From Lutimonas zeaxanthinifaciens (GTDB taxonomy: Bacteria > Bacteroidota > Bacteroidia > Flavobacteriales > Flavobacteriaceae), in the NCBI RefSeq assembly GCF_030503675.1, contig NZ_CP129964.1, forward strand, positions 3,286,001 through 3,350,000: a DNA stretch of 64,000 bases. The letters run 5' to 3'. The first letter of the stretch is position 1. Every line of letters begins with the position of its first letter. Under the pieces are notes generated by a model. It saw only the letters and a list, made by a program, of their open reading frames with translations. It did not search any database and had not been told where the DNA came from. Below are positions 44,257 through 48,761 of the stretch, piece by piece. Position numbers and translations under genes: made by a program.

Positions 44257-45675
44257 TCAAACCAGAATTCTCCAGATCTGCGCCACTAAAAAAGTCACAA
44301 CAAATCCTAAAATAACCGGAAGAATTGAGGCTATCGTAGTCCATTTAACACTTTTCGTCTCCTTGTAAATTGTATAAATTGTTGTGCTACACGGGTTGTG
44401 CAACAGGCTAAATAACATCAGGTTAACAGCAGTAAGCAAGGTCCACCCCCCTGCTTTTAGAATGGTGGCCGTGTCCGTTGCCGAATCCAGTTCGAACATG
44501 ACACCGGCTCCTTCTCCTCCTGCAATTCCTGTAACCAGTACCGTAAGCATTAATACCGTTGGAATTACAATTTCATTTGCAGGAATGGCAACGATATATG
44601 CCAGAAGTATCACCCCGTTTAATCCCAATAAAAGTCCAAAACCATCCATGCTTTGAACCGCCCAGCCGGCAATACTCAAATCACCTATGTGAATATTCGA
44701 TATCAACCAGATAACCGCACCTGCCGGAGCTGCAAAGACAATGGCCCTCCACAACACAATCAACGTTCGGTCAATGATCGAAGTATATATCGTCTTCCAG
44801 AATCTCGGCGGCCTGTAGGGAGGTAATTCCAGATTAAACGTGGAGACCTCTCCTTTTAAAACTGTTCTTGACAGCCCCCAGGAAACCAAAAACATAAATG
44901 CAATACCCAGAATGGCTATTCCAACCACCGACAGCAGCGAGGCAAGGCTTGAAAAACCTGCTGGCACTGCTGCACCAATGAATATGGTGGCTATGAGGAT
45001 CTGAGTTGGCCAACGTCCATTACACAAAGAAAAGTTATTGGTAATAATAGCGATCAATCGTTCTCTTGGGCTGTCAATAATTCTTGTGGCGACAACTCCG
45101 GCAGCATTGCATCCGAATCCCATACTCATGGTCAAAGCCTGCTTACCGTGAGCACCTGTTCTTCTAAAAAGGTTATCCATATTAAAAGCAACTCGCGGTA
45201 AATAACCAAAATCTTCCAACAAGGTGAAAAGCGGGAAAAAAATTGCCATGGGTGGCAACATCACCGCTATTACCCAGGCAACTGCAAGATAAACTCCATC
45301 GATCAAAAACCCATCCAGCCACCATGGCATACCGATACCTGCCGCGAAATTCTTTAAAACCGGATGTAAGGTGTTCAACAGCAATTCGGCAAGCATTGCG
45401 GAAGGGTAGTTGGCGCCTTCAATGGTGATCCACAATACCAGTCCCAACAAAAGGAACATAATAGGGAAGCCCCAGGTTTTGCTTGTAACGATCTCATCGA
45501 TTTTCCGATCCAATCGAAATCGCTTTTTCCCCGATTCCTTCATCACAGCGTTTTCAGCAATTTCAGATGCATCTGCATAGATCCCTTCAGCAAGATTATC
45601 GTGAAAATCTTCTCCGATCTTCCAACGGAGTTCATTGCTCATCGCTAAAATTCTATCTACGGATGTATTTTCCAT
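44257..45675 (-). CDS. feoB: Ferrous iron transporter FeoB, membrane (channel) part encoded separately
   Basis: 472 aa from the ATG at 45675, one base after the stop of the GTPase gene. After a helical N-terminus and [23 protein letters not shown], which in ordinary FeoB joins the G domain to the membrane part, there are about eight to ten hydrophobic segments. The first gate motif reads [16 protein letters not shown], without the usual GCxVP proline; the second reads [15 protein letters not shown]. So this is the Fe(II) permease half of a split FeoB, acting in the inner membrane with the adjacent GTPase. No sequence is lost at the junction, which argues for a real gene split rather than a damaged gene. 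Confidence 0.9.
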
Positions 45676-45676
45676 T

Positions 45677-46441
45677 TTATACGAATTCTCCTGTTCTAAG
45701 TGCATCAATTATTCTTGTATCTCCCTCCAAAAGCCTCAAAGCGATCCATCTACTGTTCGGAATTTCAGGGAATTCAGACTCAATCTCCTGACTCAATTTT
45801 GTTACTGCTTTTAATATTTTCTTTGGTACATTTTTAATTTGTCGAGGTTTACATACAATTTTACCTGAAGCTATTTCATCTATGGTTTGAAGCAGTTCAG
45901 GAATACCTTTCTGATATCTTGCACTGGTCGGTACAACGGGAATTCCCAAGTCTTTGGACAAACTTCTTACATCAATATGTATGTTGTTTCTATCCGCCTC
46001 GTCCATTAAATTCAGGCATAAAACTGCCTTATCTGTGATCTCCAGTATCTGAAGAACCAAATTCAGGTTTCTTTCAAGTCTGCAGGCATCAGCTACAATA
46101 ATCGTAACATCCGGCTTCCCAAAAAGAATGAAGTTTCTCGCTACTTCCTCATCCTGTGATGTTGATAAAAGAGAATAGGTTCCGGGAAGATCTACCAATT
46201 TATATTTTTTATCAGCGAATACAAAGGCTCCCTCTGCTCTGCTAACCGTTTTACCCGGCCAGTTTCCGGTATGTTGACGAAGACCGGTAAGCGCATTGAA
46301 CACCGTACTCTTACCTGTATTCGGATTTCCCGCGATTGCCAGTACATGGTCGAAATTGGCAGTATTGACCCCCAGTTTTTTCAAACTGTCTGCATTATGA
46401 TGGACACATGATTCACATGCGGATTCTGTTTTTTTACTCAT
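45677..46441 (-). CDS. FeoB small GTPase domain protein (NFeoB) encoded separately
   Basis: 254 aa. The G motifs are complete: GNPNTGKST (G1), DLPGTYSL (G3), NLMDEAD (G4) and TSARYQKG (G5), followed by the helical guanine-dissociation-inhibitor-like region ending [17 protein letters not shown]. An N-terminal CESCVHH motif could bind metal. In most FeoB proteins this domain is fused to the channel; here it stops with TAA, and the channel ATG follows after one base. The start overlaps the preceding stop as ATGA. It should regulate or drive Fe(II) uptake through the membrane half. Confidence 0.92.
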
Positions 46442-47460
46442 GATTCAATTTTATGGATCAATATTTTAGATGCCTGGTCCTTTCTCAGTGCAATACTGCT
46501 TCCTTTGATCTTATAGGCAATTGGATTCTTCATCGGACTGCTTAAATCGATACTTATCTCTGCCCCTTTAACAAATCCAAGGTCCAATAATCTTCTCCTG
46601 TTCTCTCCTCTGCACTCTTTGGACATTCCAGTAATTTTTGCGACTTCTCCTTCAAGTAAACCTGAAAGCCTGAAGGTATCTTCTTCAACAGTTTCTTTCT
46701 TCAATTCTGCAACCGTTATGTTTGCAGCGACAATAGGAGCTAAAACAAACTCTTCTCCTTCTGAATAAAATACAATACGTTCACTGTTTTTTTCTTCAAC
46801 TCGAAGCACCGAGCCAATATGTATTTTTTCGGCCAGTATCTGCTTATAGATAACGTCAGGCTCATCCTCTATATGCACGATCTTTCCTATGCTTTCTATC
46901 TCAAGTGAAGAGAGAGGAACACCATCAATTTCTTTAAGCATTCCCAGTGTATTTGGTATCGGGTCACCATGTGGATCATACATCGGATTGCCTAATTGAG
47001 TGGCAAGGACATCTGTTTCTTCGTTACTCAGAACGTGTTCCATCTCTTCGGCCCGATCATGCCATTCAGACTTGTCAAACCCTGTCTTTTCTGCAAGGTA
47101 TTTTTCCCACAACCTGTGAACCCTGATGATTCGCAGGGCATATTGTCTGCCTTCCTTGGTAAGTCCGATAAGATCTCCCTCCACCTTGACCAATTCATTG
47201 ACCGACATTTTGTGAATGGCCTCAATAACAGTACTATCTTTAAATTTTAAGGAATTCGTAAGCGCTGTAACATCTGTTTCTGAACCATAACTTTCCAGTC
47301 TGTAGAGTTGTTTTAGAATATCCTCTATAACGGTTTTTTCATTTGATTGCCAGTTATTTCTCAATAACCAGTACCATCCTTTAACAGGCCTGAACAAGAT
47401 GTAAATTAATACTACACCTCCTGTAAAAAGTAATAAAGCTGTTAATGGATTATAAGTCAT
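46438..47460 (-). CDS. Membrane-anchored DtxR-like winged-helix protein fused to FeoA
   Basis: 340 aa. A membrane helix (residues 6-23, [18 protein letters not shown]) is followed by a winged-helix domain (about 41-108) and a DtxR-type metal/dimer region (109-170) with [13 protein letters not shown] and DPHGDPIPN, keeping the E-x-x-E-H ligands of MntR-like members. Two SH3-like FeoA domains come next (about 176-250 and 262-336; the second has [12 protein letters not shown] and [15 protein letters not shown]). FeoA assists FeoB. The anchor suggests this protein works at the FeoB complex rather than, or as well as, on DNA. It overlaps both neighbours by 1 and 4 bases. Confidence 0.88.
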
Positions 47461-48119
47461 TATTTAACGTTTTTCAAACAAAGATTATCAGCCACGCTAC
47501 TGGTTATTACCAACCTGTGGGTTCTTGTTTCAATGTGATAAGAACCATCAAAGGGCTCAATATCAATTACTTTAATTCTATCACCTAATGCCAGGTTTTT
47601 CTTGTTCAGGTATTGCAAAAATTCGGATGAAGAATCACGCACTCCGACAAAGACCCCTGATGAACCAATTTTCATTTCGGTAATCACTACTGTCTTGTTC
47701 AAAATCGTTCGTCCATGAGCATCTGGTATTGGGTCTCCGTGTGGGTCAAGTTTTGGGAATTTTAAAAATGCGTCCAATTTTTCGATCAAAACTTCAGATT
47801 TGACATGCTCAAGCTGCTCGGCAATATCATGCACCTCATCCCATTTAAAATTGAGTTTCTGCACAAGAAATGACTCCCATAACCTATGCTTACGAATGAC
47901 CTTTAAGGCGCTCTTTCTTCCCAACTCGGTTAGATGAACCCCCTGGTATTTTTTATATTCAACAAGATTCTTTGCAGACAGTTTTTTTAACATGTCGGTT
48001 ACCGAAGAGGCTTTGGTGTTGGTTTTACTTGCAATAAGATTCGTACTGACCTCACTACCCTGTCTGCTCTCTAAGTTATAAATCGTTTTTAAATAATTCT
48101 CTTCTGCCTGGGAATACAT
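47460..48119 (-). CDS. Iron/manganese-dependent transcriptional regulator, DtxR/MntR family
   Basis: 219 aa from the ATG at 48119 (MYSQAEENYLKTIYNLESRQG); an upstream in-frame TTG at 48134 lies inside the promoter region. It has a winged helix (1-70), a metal-binding/dimer domain with HDIAEQLEHVKSE and [12 protein letters not shown], and a C-terminal SH3-like domain. The position of the DtxR Cys102 ligand is Glu, as in MntR. The MntR Asp8 position looks like Asn in ENYLK. It leads the feo operon (stop/start overlap TAATG), and a palindrome sits over its promoter, so autoregulated metal repression is the simplest reading. Confidence 0.92.
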   Translation of the reverse strand: MYSQAEENYLKTIYNLESRQGSEVSTNLIASKTNTKASSVTDMLKKLSAKNLVEYKKYQGVHLTELGRKSALKVIRKHRLWESFLVQKLNFKWDEVHDIAEQLEHVKSEVLIEKLDAFLKFPKLDPHGDPIPDAHGRTILNKTVVITEMKIGSSGVFVGVRDSSSEFLQYLNKKNLALGDRIKVIDIEPFDGSYHIETRTHRLVITSSVADNLCLKNVK

Positions 48120-48131
48120 TCTATTTTTTTG

Positions 48132-48139
48132 CAAATATA
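48132..48139 (-). promoter_or_regulatory. -7 element of the feo operon
   Basis: On the minus strand TAtaTTTG is a full consensus match, 13 bases before the regulator's ATG, which implies a very short leader. Confidence 0.6.
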
Positions 48140-48147
48140 AATATATT

Positions 48148-48163
48148 TTTAGTTATACCTAAA
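48148..48163. promoter_or_regulatory. DtxR/MntR operator candidate at the feo promoter
   Basis: TTTAGTTA (48148-48155) and TACCTAAA (48156-48163) form a 16-bp palindrome with one mismatch per half-site (the complement reads TTTAGGTA TAACTAAA). The half-site resembles the TTAGGTTAGCCTAA type bound by DtxR-family repressors. It ends 9 bases upstream of the -7 box, between the -7 and -33 contacts, where a bound repressor would block transcription. Confidence 0.6.
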
Positions 48164-48223: not shown

Positions 48224-48661
48224 CTATTTCAAATGCATTAAGTCAAGTATAGACCTTTTAAAAGATTCGATGTCTGCAGAATCGAGGTTGATCGTCAATG
48301 ATTCGTCAACAATTTCATCCACAAGTTTCAGAGGAAATGCCAGGCCGGTTACGATCTTTCTCAAAACAGCGACCTCTGCATTCTCAATATGATGATCCGC
48401 TTTTACCATGACCAATAATTCATATAGTCTTTCTATTCTCTCAACGCATTCAATATGCGCCAAGGTGGGAACATTCTCAGGTGATCGCAGAATTTCCCTA
48501 AACTTTTCATCAGAAATATTATACTTTCTCGAAACTTTGGATAGAAATTCAATTTCTTCAGGCGAGATCTTATCATCAGATTTTGCAATTCTGACAATGT
48601 TTGCAAAATGACTGATGTTCCTTTTCTGTCCTATACTCATATACAAATCAGAAATTCCCAT
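48224..48661 (-). CDS. TerB-like helical protein
   Basis: 145 aa from the ATG at 48661; an in-frame GTG at 48667 is the alternative. It is all helical with the TerB-type repeat of acidic loops: RIAKSDDKISPEEIEFLSKVSRKYNISDEKF and VMVKADHHIENAEVAVLRKIVTGLAF. TerB-like domains occur in tellurite-resistance and surface-stress proteins; here no ter genes are adjacent and no function is assigned. It is divergent from mfd, with a weak -7-like TAtcTTTA upstream. Confidence 0.78.
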   Translation of the reverse strand: MGISDLYMSIGQKRNISHFANIVRIAKSDDKISPEEIEFLSKVSRKYNISDEKFREILRSPENVPTLAHIECVERIERLYELLVMVKADHHIENAEVAVLRKIVTGLAFPLKLVDEIVDESLTINLDSADIESFKRSILDLMHLK

Positions 48662-48761
48662 AGCCACAGGTGTTTAGGTTACTATCTAAAGATACAAAAA
48701 ATTAACAATCTGATAATCCAAACACTTCAAAATTTACATAAAAAGTCTGAGCTATTCGACT

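Follow-up and report, generated by a model that had tools for sequence, protein, structure and literature searches.

The 64,000-nucleotide window analyzed here (Lutimonas zeaxanthinifaciens, contig NZ_CP129964.1, positions 3,286,001 to 3,350,000; coordinates below count from its first letter) carries on its minus strand, at 44257-48119, an operon of four tightly coupled genes. These encode a soluble DtxR-type protein, a fusion of a membrane helix, a DtxR core and a FeoA domain, a FeoB GTPase and a FeoB channel. Their open reading frames (ORFs) were read from the sequence, as were the junctions. The dtxR and fusion genes meet at TAATG with one shared base at 47460, the fusion and GTPase genes overlap by four bases at ATGA (46438-46441), and TAA-A-ATG leaves a one-base gap at 45676 between the GTPase and channel genes. 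An earlier sequence-only reading of this DNA had described the same coupling, and the junctions lie exactly as it claimed. The dtxR start was set at the ATG because a TTG at 48134 falls within a promoter-like element. The genes and features, with their basis, are as follows.

48149..48162, minus strand: DtxR-type operator-like palindrome TTAGGTATAACTAA, upstream of dtxR (sequence pattern)
48132..48139, minus strand: TATATTTG, a Bacteroidota -7-like element by its consensus, 9 bases downstream of the TTAGGTATAACTAA box (read from sequence)
47460..48119, minus strand: soluble DtxR/MntR-type repressor, 219 amino acids (aa) from the ATG (Pfam)
46438..47460, minus strand: membrane-tethered DtxR-SH3-FeoA fusion, 340 aa (Pfam, AlphaFold2 (AF2) model, 80 homologous loci)
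47395..47448, minus strand: predicted transmembrane helix, fusion residues 5-22, N outside/C inside (hydrophobicity, AF2, flank charges, profile matches)
47170..47334, minus strand: degenerate winged helix, fusion residues 43-97, recognition helix about 75-87 (low identity; Pfam)
46951..47160, minus strand: metal-binding/dimerisation domain, fusion residues 101-170 (Pfam; ligand conservation)
46702..46938, minus strand: first SH3, fusion residues 175-253, the usual DtxR/MntR SH3, with an H-x-E-D-E-P motif at 196-201 (AF2, Foldseek, profile alignment)
46450..46677, minus strand: second SH3 (FeoA2), fusion residues 262-337, a true FeoA domain (Pfam; identity to stand-alone FeoA)
45677..46441, minus strand: separate FeoB GTPase domain, 254 aa (Pfam FeoB_N)
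46406..46417, minus strand: C-x-x-C motif at the N terminus of the GTPase protein (C9-C12), carried by 77 of the 78 sequences whose G1 motif is readable, window included
44257..45675, minus strand: separate FeoB membrane channel, 472 aa from the ATG, of a distinct subfamily (Pfam Gate and FeoB_C)
45001..45123, minus strand: pore signature GCNAAG / NNFxLCNGRWP, near-invariant in 77 sequences, window included
44380..44400, minus strand: second pore signature HNPCSTT, with H in 74/74, N in 74/74 and C in 73/73 sequences that have a letter there

Pfam assigned Fe_dep_repress, Fe_dep_repr_C and FeoA domains to the soluble DtxR. The fusion matched Fe_dep_repress (residues 43-96, 26.9 bits, cut-off 26), Fe_dep_repr_C (residues 101-170, 92.7 bits) and FeoA (80 bits; best stretch 264-336, with two stretches at a lax threshold and one at E 0.001). 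An AF2 model of the fusion, built on an alignment of 75 sequences, reached a mean predicted local distance difference test (pLDDT) score of 94.6 and a predicted template modelling (pTM) score of 0.87. It comprises the helix 5-22, a long helix 29-57 running into the winged helix, the dimerisation helices and two SH3-like barrels, judged by strand order. The Foldseek matches of this model were full-length DtxR/MntR structures, the best being 5zr6, a manganese-dependent repressor, with a TM-score of 0.86 on the target. The 75-sequence alignment held the window and 74 of the 80 homologous loci, five having been thinned as close relatives (L044, L047, L050, L055 and L058) and L083 left out for an unknown residue. 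A separate close-fusion alignment held the window and 20 of the 21 other full-length fusions (L023 left out), and start codons of homologues were assigned by script. The sequence-only reading had seen a 340-aa protein joining a helix, a DtxR-type winged helix with its metal region, and two SH3/FeoA domains. Pfam and the model support this layout and both barrels, but only the second barrel resembles a true FeoA, the first being the usual DtxR SH3.

The N-terminal segment was hydrophobic in 79 of 80 fusion homologues, the exception being locus L113. The C side of the helix was more positive than the N side in 79/79 (mean net charge +4.41 vs -0.47). Because the positive flank is always on the C side, the N terminus is predicted to lie outside and the DtxR and FeoA parts in the cytoplasm. 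The helix is followed by a P-x-x-G juxtamembrane motif, and such a motif occurs in 69/79 homologues. The fusion almost certainly has a real membrane anchor. The sequence-only reading had made itself depend on the reality of this helix, which these checks upheld. A misread helix or an ORF arising by chance was ruled out by the 79/80 hydrophobic segments and the consistent flank charges.

Conservation within the fusion was divided between its metal-binding and DNA-reading parts. Across 51 operons with a soluble partner, window included, the fusion ligands H115, E119, H134, E141 and H142 were present in 51/51, D47 in 49/51 and E138 in 46/51, and five metal ligands were among the invariant residues of the 75 fusions. 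In the first-SH3 motif at 196-201, H196, D199 and P201 were kept in 51/51 and E198 and E200 in 49/51. In DtxR the SH3 supplies further metal ligands at this place, and structure 1c0w, among the Foldseek matches, is titled as a metal-binding SH-like domain. The metal domain PF02742 was found in 75/75 fusions and in all soluble partners, with a mean pairwise identity over the 51 operons of 0.61 in the fusion and 0.57 in the partner. The two SH3/FeoA domains of the fusion reached 0.45 and 0.53 vs 0.30 for the partner's SH3. For the recognition helix, in contrast, mean identity was only 0.20 in the fusion vs 0.57 in the partner; over the whole winged helix of the fusion it was 0.32. The recognition helix and wing carried a mean net charge of -0.82 in the fusion vs +2.51 in the partner, and the fusion was less positive in 43 of 51 pairs. 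The Pfam DNA-binding domain PF01325 was matched at E 0.001 by 4/75 fusions (the window's among them) vs 51/51 operon-encoded soluble DtxRs. A missing Pfam match is no proof of lost DNA binding, because YtgR of Chlamydia, of the ABC-3-DtxR kind that likewise gives no match, binds DNA. An operator-specific repressor role for the fusion is probably absent. Reading the fusion as an ordinary DtxR was ruled out by its membrane helix, its decayed recognition helix and its constant linkage to FeoB.

This YtgR is the model for a different reading. In Chlamydia YtgC-YtgR, an ABC permease with a C-terminal DtxR, the DtxR part is cut off and represses its own operon (PMC5599777). The DtxR part of the fusion, freed by proteolysis or working while anchored, might likewise repress transcription, with FeoA2 as a passive passenger. 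The first 250 residues of the fusion do align with the tail of such a permease, and the window's winged helix still reaches the Pfam cut-off. The recognition helix and wing are nevertheless poorly conserved and less positive than those of the operon partner, and a soluble DtxR with a recognisable DNA-binding domain is encoded in the same operon at 50 of the 80 loci. We regard an anchored repressor of this kind as unlikely.

The reach of the fusion was assessed by a contig scan with an alignment of 21 close fusions, and the 80 loci are the best 80 of at least 590 confirmed stretches. They come from about ten phyla, as named in the sequence records, and many are metagenome bins. The groups among these best 80 were Bacteroidota, Ignavibacteria, Chloroflexi, Acidobacteria, Verrucomicrobiota, Calditrichaeota, Gemmatimonadetes, Planctomycetota, Balneolales, KSB1 and one Methylococcaceae metagenome-assembled genome, and the nearest named relatives were Flavobacteriaceae such as Aureibaculum. 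FeoB directly follows the fusion in 79/80 loci, split in 73 and single-chain in 6; at the 80th, L101, the contig ends 138 bases past the fusion frame. A soluble DtxR stands directly upstream in 50/80. The order of fusion and FeoB is thus no accident. The fusion is closely linked to FeoB, whereas its link to the soluble DtxR is loose. The domain order of membrane helix, DtxR-type helix-turn-helix and FeoA beside a split FeoB, which the sequence-only reading had proposed to seek across Bacteroidota, thus recurs at these loci and reaches beyond that phylum. That reading had also called the fusion unusual. The architecture is conserved and broadly distributed, and a lineage-specific oddity was ruled out by the homologues in about ten phyla.

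Genome surveys gave a consistent association with one FeoB subtype. Of 60 near relatives, own genome included, 22 have a full-length fusion. Besides the window's genome, these are 19 of its 21 congeners and two genomes from two further genera of the family, one from each. In 148 genomes of the phylum, own included and among the matches listed, 22 have the fusion and 25 the FeoB channel subtype; 22/22 fusion genomes have the subtype and 22/25 subtype genomes the fusion. The three subtype genomes without a fusion belong to one family, f35 (L162, L163 with L170, and L164). They encode a stand-alone FeoA, then FeoB_N and FeoB_C, with a separate DtxR gene converging on this cluster. In all three the FeoA is 41-46% identical to the fusion's FeoA2, and the GTPase lacks the N-terminal CxxC. 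Because f35 has a similar stand-alone FeoA in its place, FeoA2 can be taken as the system's own FeoA, to which the anchored DtxR is an addition. The helix and DtxR core could also be a simple tether: they would make up for the lost covalent link of FeoB by keeping FeoA close to the split GTPase and channel, and metal binding would be incidental. The fusion's company with a split FeoB in 73/79 evaluable loci fits such a role. Against it, six loci pair the fusion with a single-chain FeoB, the three f35 genomes have a split FeoB and a plain FeoA with no tether, and the 75 fusions share five invariant metal ligands; we consider it quite improbable.

The GTPase matched FeoB_N with 205 bits and part of FeoB_Cyto, the channel matched Gate with 87.9 bits and FeoB_C with 50 bits, and neither chain reached the NCBIfam feoB equivalog cut-off (210 and 171 of 316 bits). 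The sequence-only reading was right that GTPase and channel are separate proteins, the two ORFs being a base apart with FeoB_N in one and Gate and FeoB_C in the other. It had called such a split known but uncommon; among loci with this fusion, however, it is the rule. In the 148 genomes, among the matches listed, the channel scored 647-1039 bits within its subtype vs no more than 140 for other FeoBs. At the signature columns, nine ordinary FeoBs taken from these loci share the cysteines and are otherwise different, mostly having C-A-I-P-A / P-F-x-T-C-S-A-R-L-P where the subtype has GCNAAG/NNFxLCNGRWP. Ten frames entered this comparison, L086 being an antisense frame and no FeoB. We place the channel in a distinct FeoB subfamily, marked by a pore signature of its own. 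An ordinary-FeoB frame starts within 2.5 kb of the subtype channel gene in 9/77 loci (L046, L048, L050, L051, L053, L054, L059, L060 and L097), and this coexistence of both FeoB kinds at one locus argues for different jobs.

The CxxC of the GTPase possibly serves metal or redox sensing. L115 has the fusion and a GTPase without CxxC, and its absence from fusion-less f35 is confined to one lineage and is hence one event at best. The G1-motif count left out L054 and L108, in which the GTPase frames are broken. At L054 (7018-9220) GTPase and channel are each in two pieces, and at L108 (6962-7792) the GTPase is; these are broken genes or assembly errors. A further possibility is that the anchored DtxR core is a metal acceptor or chaperone, taking the ion at the channel mouth and passing it on, for transport and not for feedback. 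Its conserved metal sites are held at the membrane beside the channel, and the CxxC (77/78, missing in the three fusion-less subtype genomes) could be part of a relay. The CxxC correlation, however, rests on that single fusion-less family, with L115 breaking it, and the sites of DtxR and MntR are reversible sensors that change shape. A chaperone role is improbable in our judgment. Clustering in the 77 loci looked for a further conserved gene after FeoB, and most loci had none. A Phenol_MetA_deg outer-membrane-type protein lies near FeoB in 5/77 loci, downstream of FeoB_C (L043 9230-9982, L047, L050, L053 and L099). PF13557 was confirmed for the L043 protein, the other four being assigned by clustering. 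Such a protein also lies at L165 (6826-7638) beside a different FeoB, judged by eye. It could be an outer-membrane metal route.

Upstream of the operon, the window has the TTAGGTATAACTAA box, and perfect TTAG-N6-CTAA boxes preceded 34 of 48 dtxR-led operons (window included) and 14 of 30 fusion-led operons, or 17 of 30 with at most one mismatch. These counts cover the window, 47 of the 50 dtxR-led loci (in the other three the contig begins too close) and each of the 30 loci that lack an upstream dtxR. In mononucleotide shuffles of the dtxR-led set, 0.34 of 48 had the box on average and never more than 3. First-order Markov sequences gave a mean of 0.35 (maximum 2) of 48 and a mean of 0.14 (maximum 1) of 30, and the background over all 80 loci was 0.016 boxes per 200 bases. 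The soluble DtxR is the probable transcriptional regulator of the operon and plausibly acts through this box, since a DtxR-type box precedes the operon. The box sequence itself is uninformative on which metal is sensed. A TerB-like gene (48224-48667, same strand, Pfam 31 bits) lies upstream of the operon and is seen too in the congeneric locus L005. The host genome, one contig of 3.53 Mb, has three places that match the DtxR metal domain, two of them within this operon. The third, G000:C1:2165689 (locus L002), has His where both operon DtxR proteins have the primary-site Glu.

ABC-3 (TroC/MntB-like) permeases with a C-terminal DtxR are present in related genomes. In 18/18 of these ABC-3-DtxR proteins, a matrix made from 79 fusion N-termini scored highest at the last permease helix, always exactly 38 residues before the winged-helix anchor, in one register. 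That helix scored 13-32 and the rest of each protein 0-11; when the matched stretch was shuffled with its composition kept, no more than 4 of 2000 shuffles came up to its score. With hhalign, fusion residues 1-250 aligned colinearly with the L106 permease at residues 255-505 (pairwise E 2e-35); the tail of this permease itself bears an SH3/FeoA domain. The ABC-3 permease domain PF00950 had no match in the fusion in the Pfam scan, only the last helix being common to both. A first DtxR tree (40 fusions, 18 ABC-DtxR, 23 operon-linked soluble) fell into three groups and was uninformative about its root. Another sample, of 21 fusions, 18 ABC-DtxR, and 11 operon-linked and 15 other soluble DtxRs, gave a second tree over only 139 columns, which placed fusions and ABC-DtxR on one side and the 26 soluble DtxRs on the other with support 97/95; its root was assumed and its soluble rows are mostly from Bacteroidota. 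The anchored sensor appears to derive from, or share its origin with, the tail of an ABC-3 permease-DtxR fusion. The simplest path would be that the permease was lost and FeoA gained.

The Asp and Glu at the D47 and E138 positions match manganese repressors in the profile alignment. DtxR has Met10 and Cys102 there, and structure titles among the Foldseek matches name both residues. The soluble operon partner has Asn in 36 and Asp in 15 at the first ligand position. The profile search ranked 5zr4/5zr6, DR2539, ScaR, SloR and MtsR above IdeR and DtxR, and all of these higher-ranking entries except MtsR are titled manganese regulators among the Foldseek matches. Among the 60 relatives, 0 of 12 genomes with a strong ABC-3 permease have the fusion (P 0.0019, kinship uncorrected, with 20 of the 22 fusion genomes in one genus). 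In the 148 genomes, among the matches listed, ABC-DtxR (13) and fusion (22) genomes do not overlap (P 0.11, not significant). Nramp presence did not separate fusion from non-fusion genomes. Gene complementarity is thus a weak pointer to manganese specificity. Taking ligands and profile ranking together, we give Mn(II) a slight preference over Fe(II) as the main metal, the one sensed and probably also carried.

The genome also has a second, ordinary FeoA (76-aa frame) and FeoB (704-aa frame) elsewhere. The sequence-only reading had labelled the locus a feo operon; the FeoB homology stands, but the iron role is unproven because the ligands are of the manganese type and this separate FeoA-FeoB pair exists. 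The operon could even so be an ordinary second iron importer, with Fe(II) sensed and transported in the same architecture, which is compatible with a feedback mechanism. FeoB homology and the retention of both pore cysteines (C190 and C430) support iron, and iron can act on regulators of the DtxR family that have other ligand sets. The ordinary FeoA-FeoB, the match of D47/E138 to manganese repressors and a pore signature unlike that of ordinary FeoB speak against it. So do the host genome's best ABC-3 match (24 bits, partial, cut-off 20.1) and its Nramp match, which are weak vs the strong ones of relatives (ABC-3 120-254 bits, Nramp 180-460 bits). We treat a second iron importer as a serious minority possibility.

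With moderate confidence, we propose an uptake system that metal controls at two levels, with a distinct, split FeoB at its core that the anchored sensor-FeoA adjusts directly. At high cytosolic metal, the soluble DtxR would bind the TTAG-N6-CTAA box and turn transcription off. The helix would keep the fusion, as the FeoA subunit of the transporter, at the inner membrane, where FeoA2 would engage the separate FeoB GTPase in its GTP state and help the channel stay active. FeoA of Bacteroides fragilis binds the FeoB GTPase in a GTP-like state and slows hydrolysis, a proposed active transport state (PMC8980893). FeoA2 probably acts likewise on the FeoB GTPase here. The DtxR core of the fusion would sense cytosolic metal, and metal in the two conserved sites (one shared with the first SH3, as in DtxR) would lock the dimer. 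The loaded sensor would then move FeoA2 off the GTPase and stop uptake fast without new transcription; a metal-free sensor would let FeoA2 hold the GTPase active. Product feedback is the simplest outcome because a metal sensor shares a chain with FeoA at the membrane, and we judge an inhibitory direction fairly likely. In a fuller version, a DtxR module that once belonged to an ABC manganese permease and is now joined to FeoA would gate the separate, widely distributed FeoB subfamily, a 'Meo' Mn(II) importer, by direct, transcription-independent feedback; we offer it tentatively, at somewhat less than an even chance. The sequence-only reading had suggested that the fusion could sense metal directly at the membrane as a FeoB helper; anchoring, conserved ligands and constant FeoB linkage agree with this, although the effect itself is an inference.

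Several observations weigh against this proposal. Contact with FeoB, the direction of the effect and the metal were all inferred from sequence and predicted structure, and the 80-locus sample is enriched for close homologues. The window's winged helix is still just above the Pfam cut-off (26.9 vs 26 bits), and 0/18 ABC-3-DtxR proteins have a Pfam DNA-binding match, although YtgR, of the same kind, binds DNA (PMC5599777). Regarding manganese, both FeoB pore cysteines are kept, and the two-domain MntR proteins of B. subtilis (without SH3) and E. coli rank below IdeR/DtxR. Several fusion genomes, such as G001, G005 and G012, have a strong Nramp transporter, and the host genome has one weak Nramp match of 69 bits (cut-off 29.8). 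Because fusion genomes carry Nramp matches, manganese import need not depend on this operon.

If the fuller version holds, a family of repressors has given rise to an allosteric transporter subunit bound to the membrane. A sensor-FeoA fusion bears on how FeoB is switched and on the purpose of FeoA. A metal sensor of well-understood chemistry joined to FeoA at the membrane makes the switch accessible through defined ligand mutants, and the f35 genomes, with the subtype, a stand-alone FeoA, no anchored DtxR and no CxxC, are a natural comparison for the anchored sensor's contribution. The FeoB subfamily would be annotated as ferrous iron transport, and its metal may be manganese. The system also joins two literatures, that of ABC permease-repressor fusions and that of Feo.

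Herein, the system shares with Feo (FeoA-FeoB, with FeoC in Gammaproteobacteria) the FeoB_N GTPase, the Gate/FeoB_C channel and a FeoA domain encoded alongside. It differs in its two-protein FeoB, other pore signature, GTPase CxxC and FeoA fused to an anchored metal sensor. The sequence-only reading had suggested that the fusion does the jobs of both FeoA and FeoC. It carries a FeoA, but FeoC is an analogy only: the Pfam matches of five window proteins at E up to 1 did not include FeoC, and fusion residues 43-100, which span the winged helix, have no cysteines. With the YtgCR/ABC-3 permease-DtxR proteins, it shares the last transmembrane helix, the juxtamembrane segment, a winged helix without a Pfam match and the metal domain, and with those from L106 and L143 the SH3 too. 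The permease is absent here, a FeoA is added, and the partner is FeoB instead of an ABC ATPase. Permease-repressor fusions have been reported in 11 phyla (PMC5599777).

Porphyromonas gingivalis PgMntR with FeoB2, as described in PMC4805248, likewise combines a DtxR with two C-terminal FeoA domains in an operon with a FeoB-type manganese transporter. It is described there as highly soluble and DNA-binding, and the word 'transmembrane' is absent from that account; this description sets our membrane-helical fusion apart from it. A PgMntR-like protein was sought in long DtxR-frame regions of G163, G094, G131 and G117, which showed ordinary single-SH3 DtxRs only. In the FeoAB of Bacteroides fragilis, FeoA is also covalently tied into the transporter complex, but to the FeoB GTPase itself and with no metal sensor (PMC8980893). 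The proposed 'Meo' manganese branch of Feo (PMC8749426) comprises FeoB relatives proposed as Mn(II) carriers, and that source also mentions FeoA carrying an extra domain and FeoA-like domains in pairs; its main text uses neither the word 'split' nor 'DtxR'. No description of the fusion was found in the literature searched, which lay outside subscription journals and preprints. We set the system apart from ordinary Feo, YtgCR and PgMntR because it lacks the single chain and pore signature of the first, the permease domain of the second and the solubility of the third. Each part has a known relative in Feo, DtxR/MntR, YtgCR, the twin-FeoA PgMntR or FeoAB, and what appears to be new is their combination, the FeoB subfamily and the reach of the whole.

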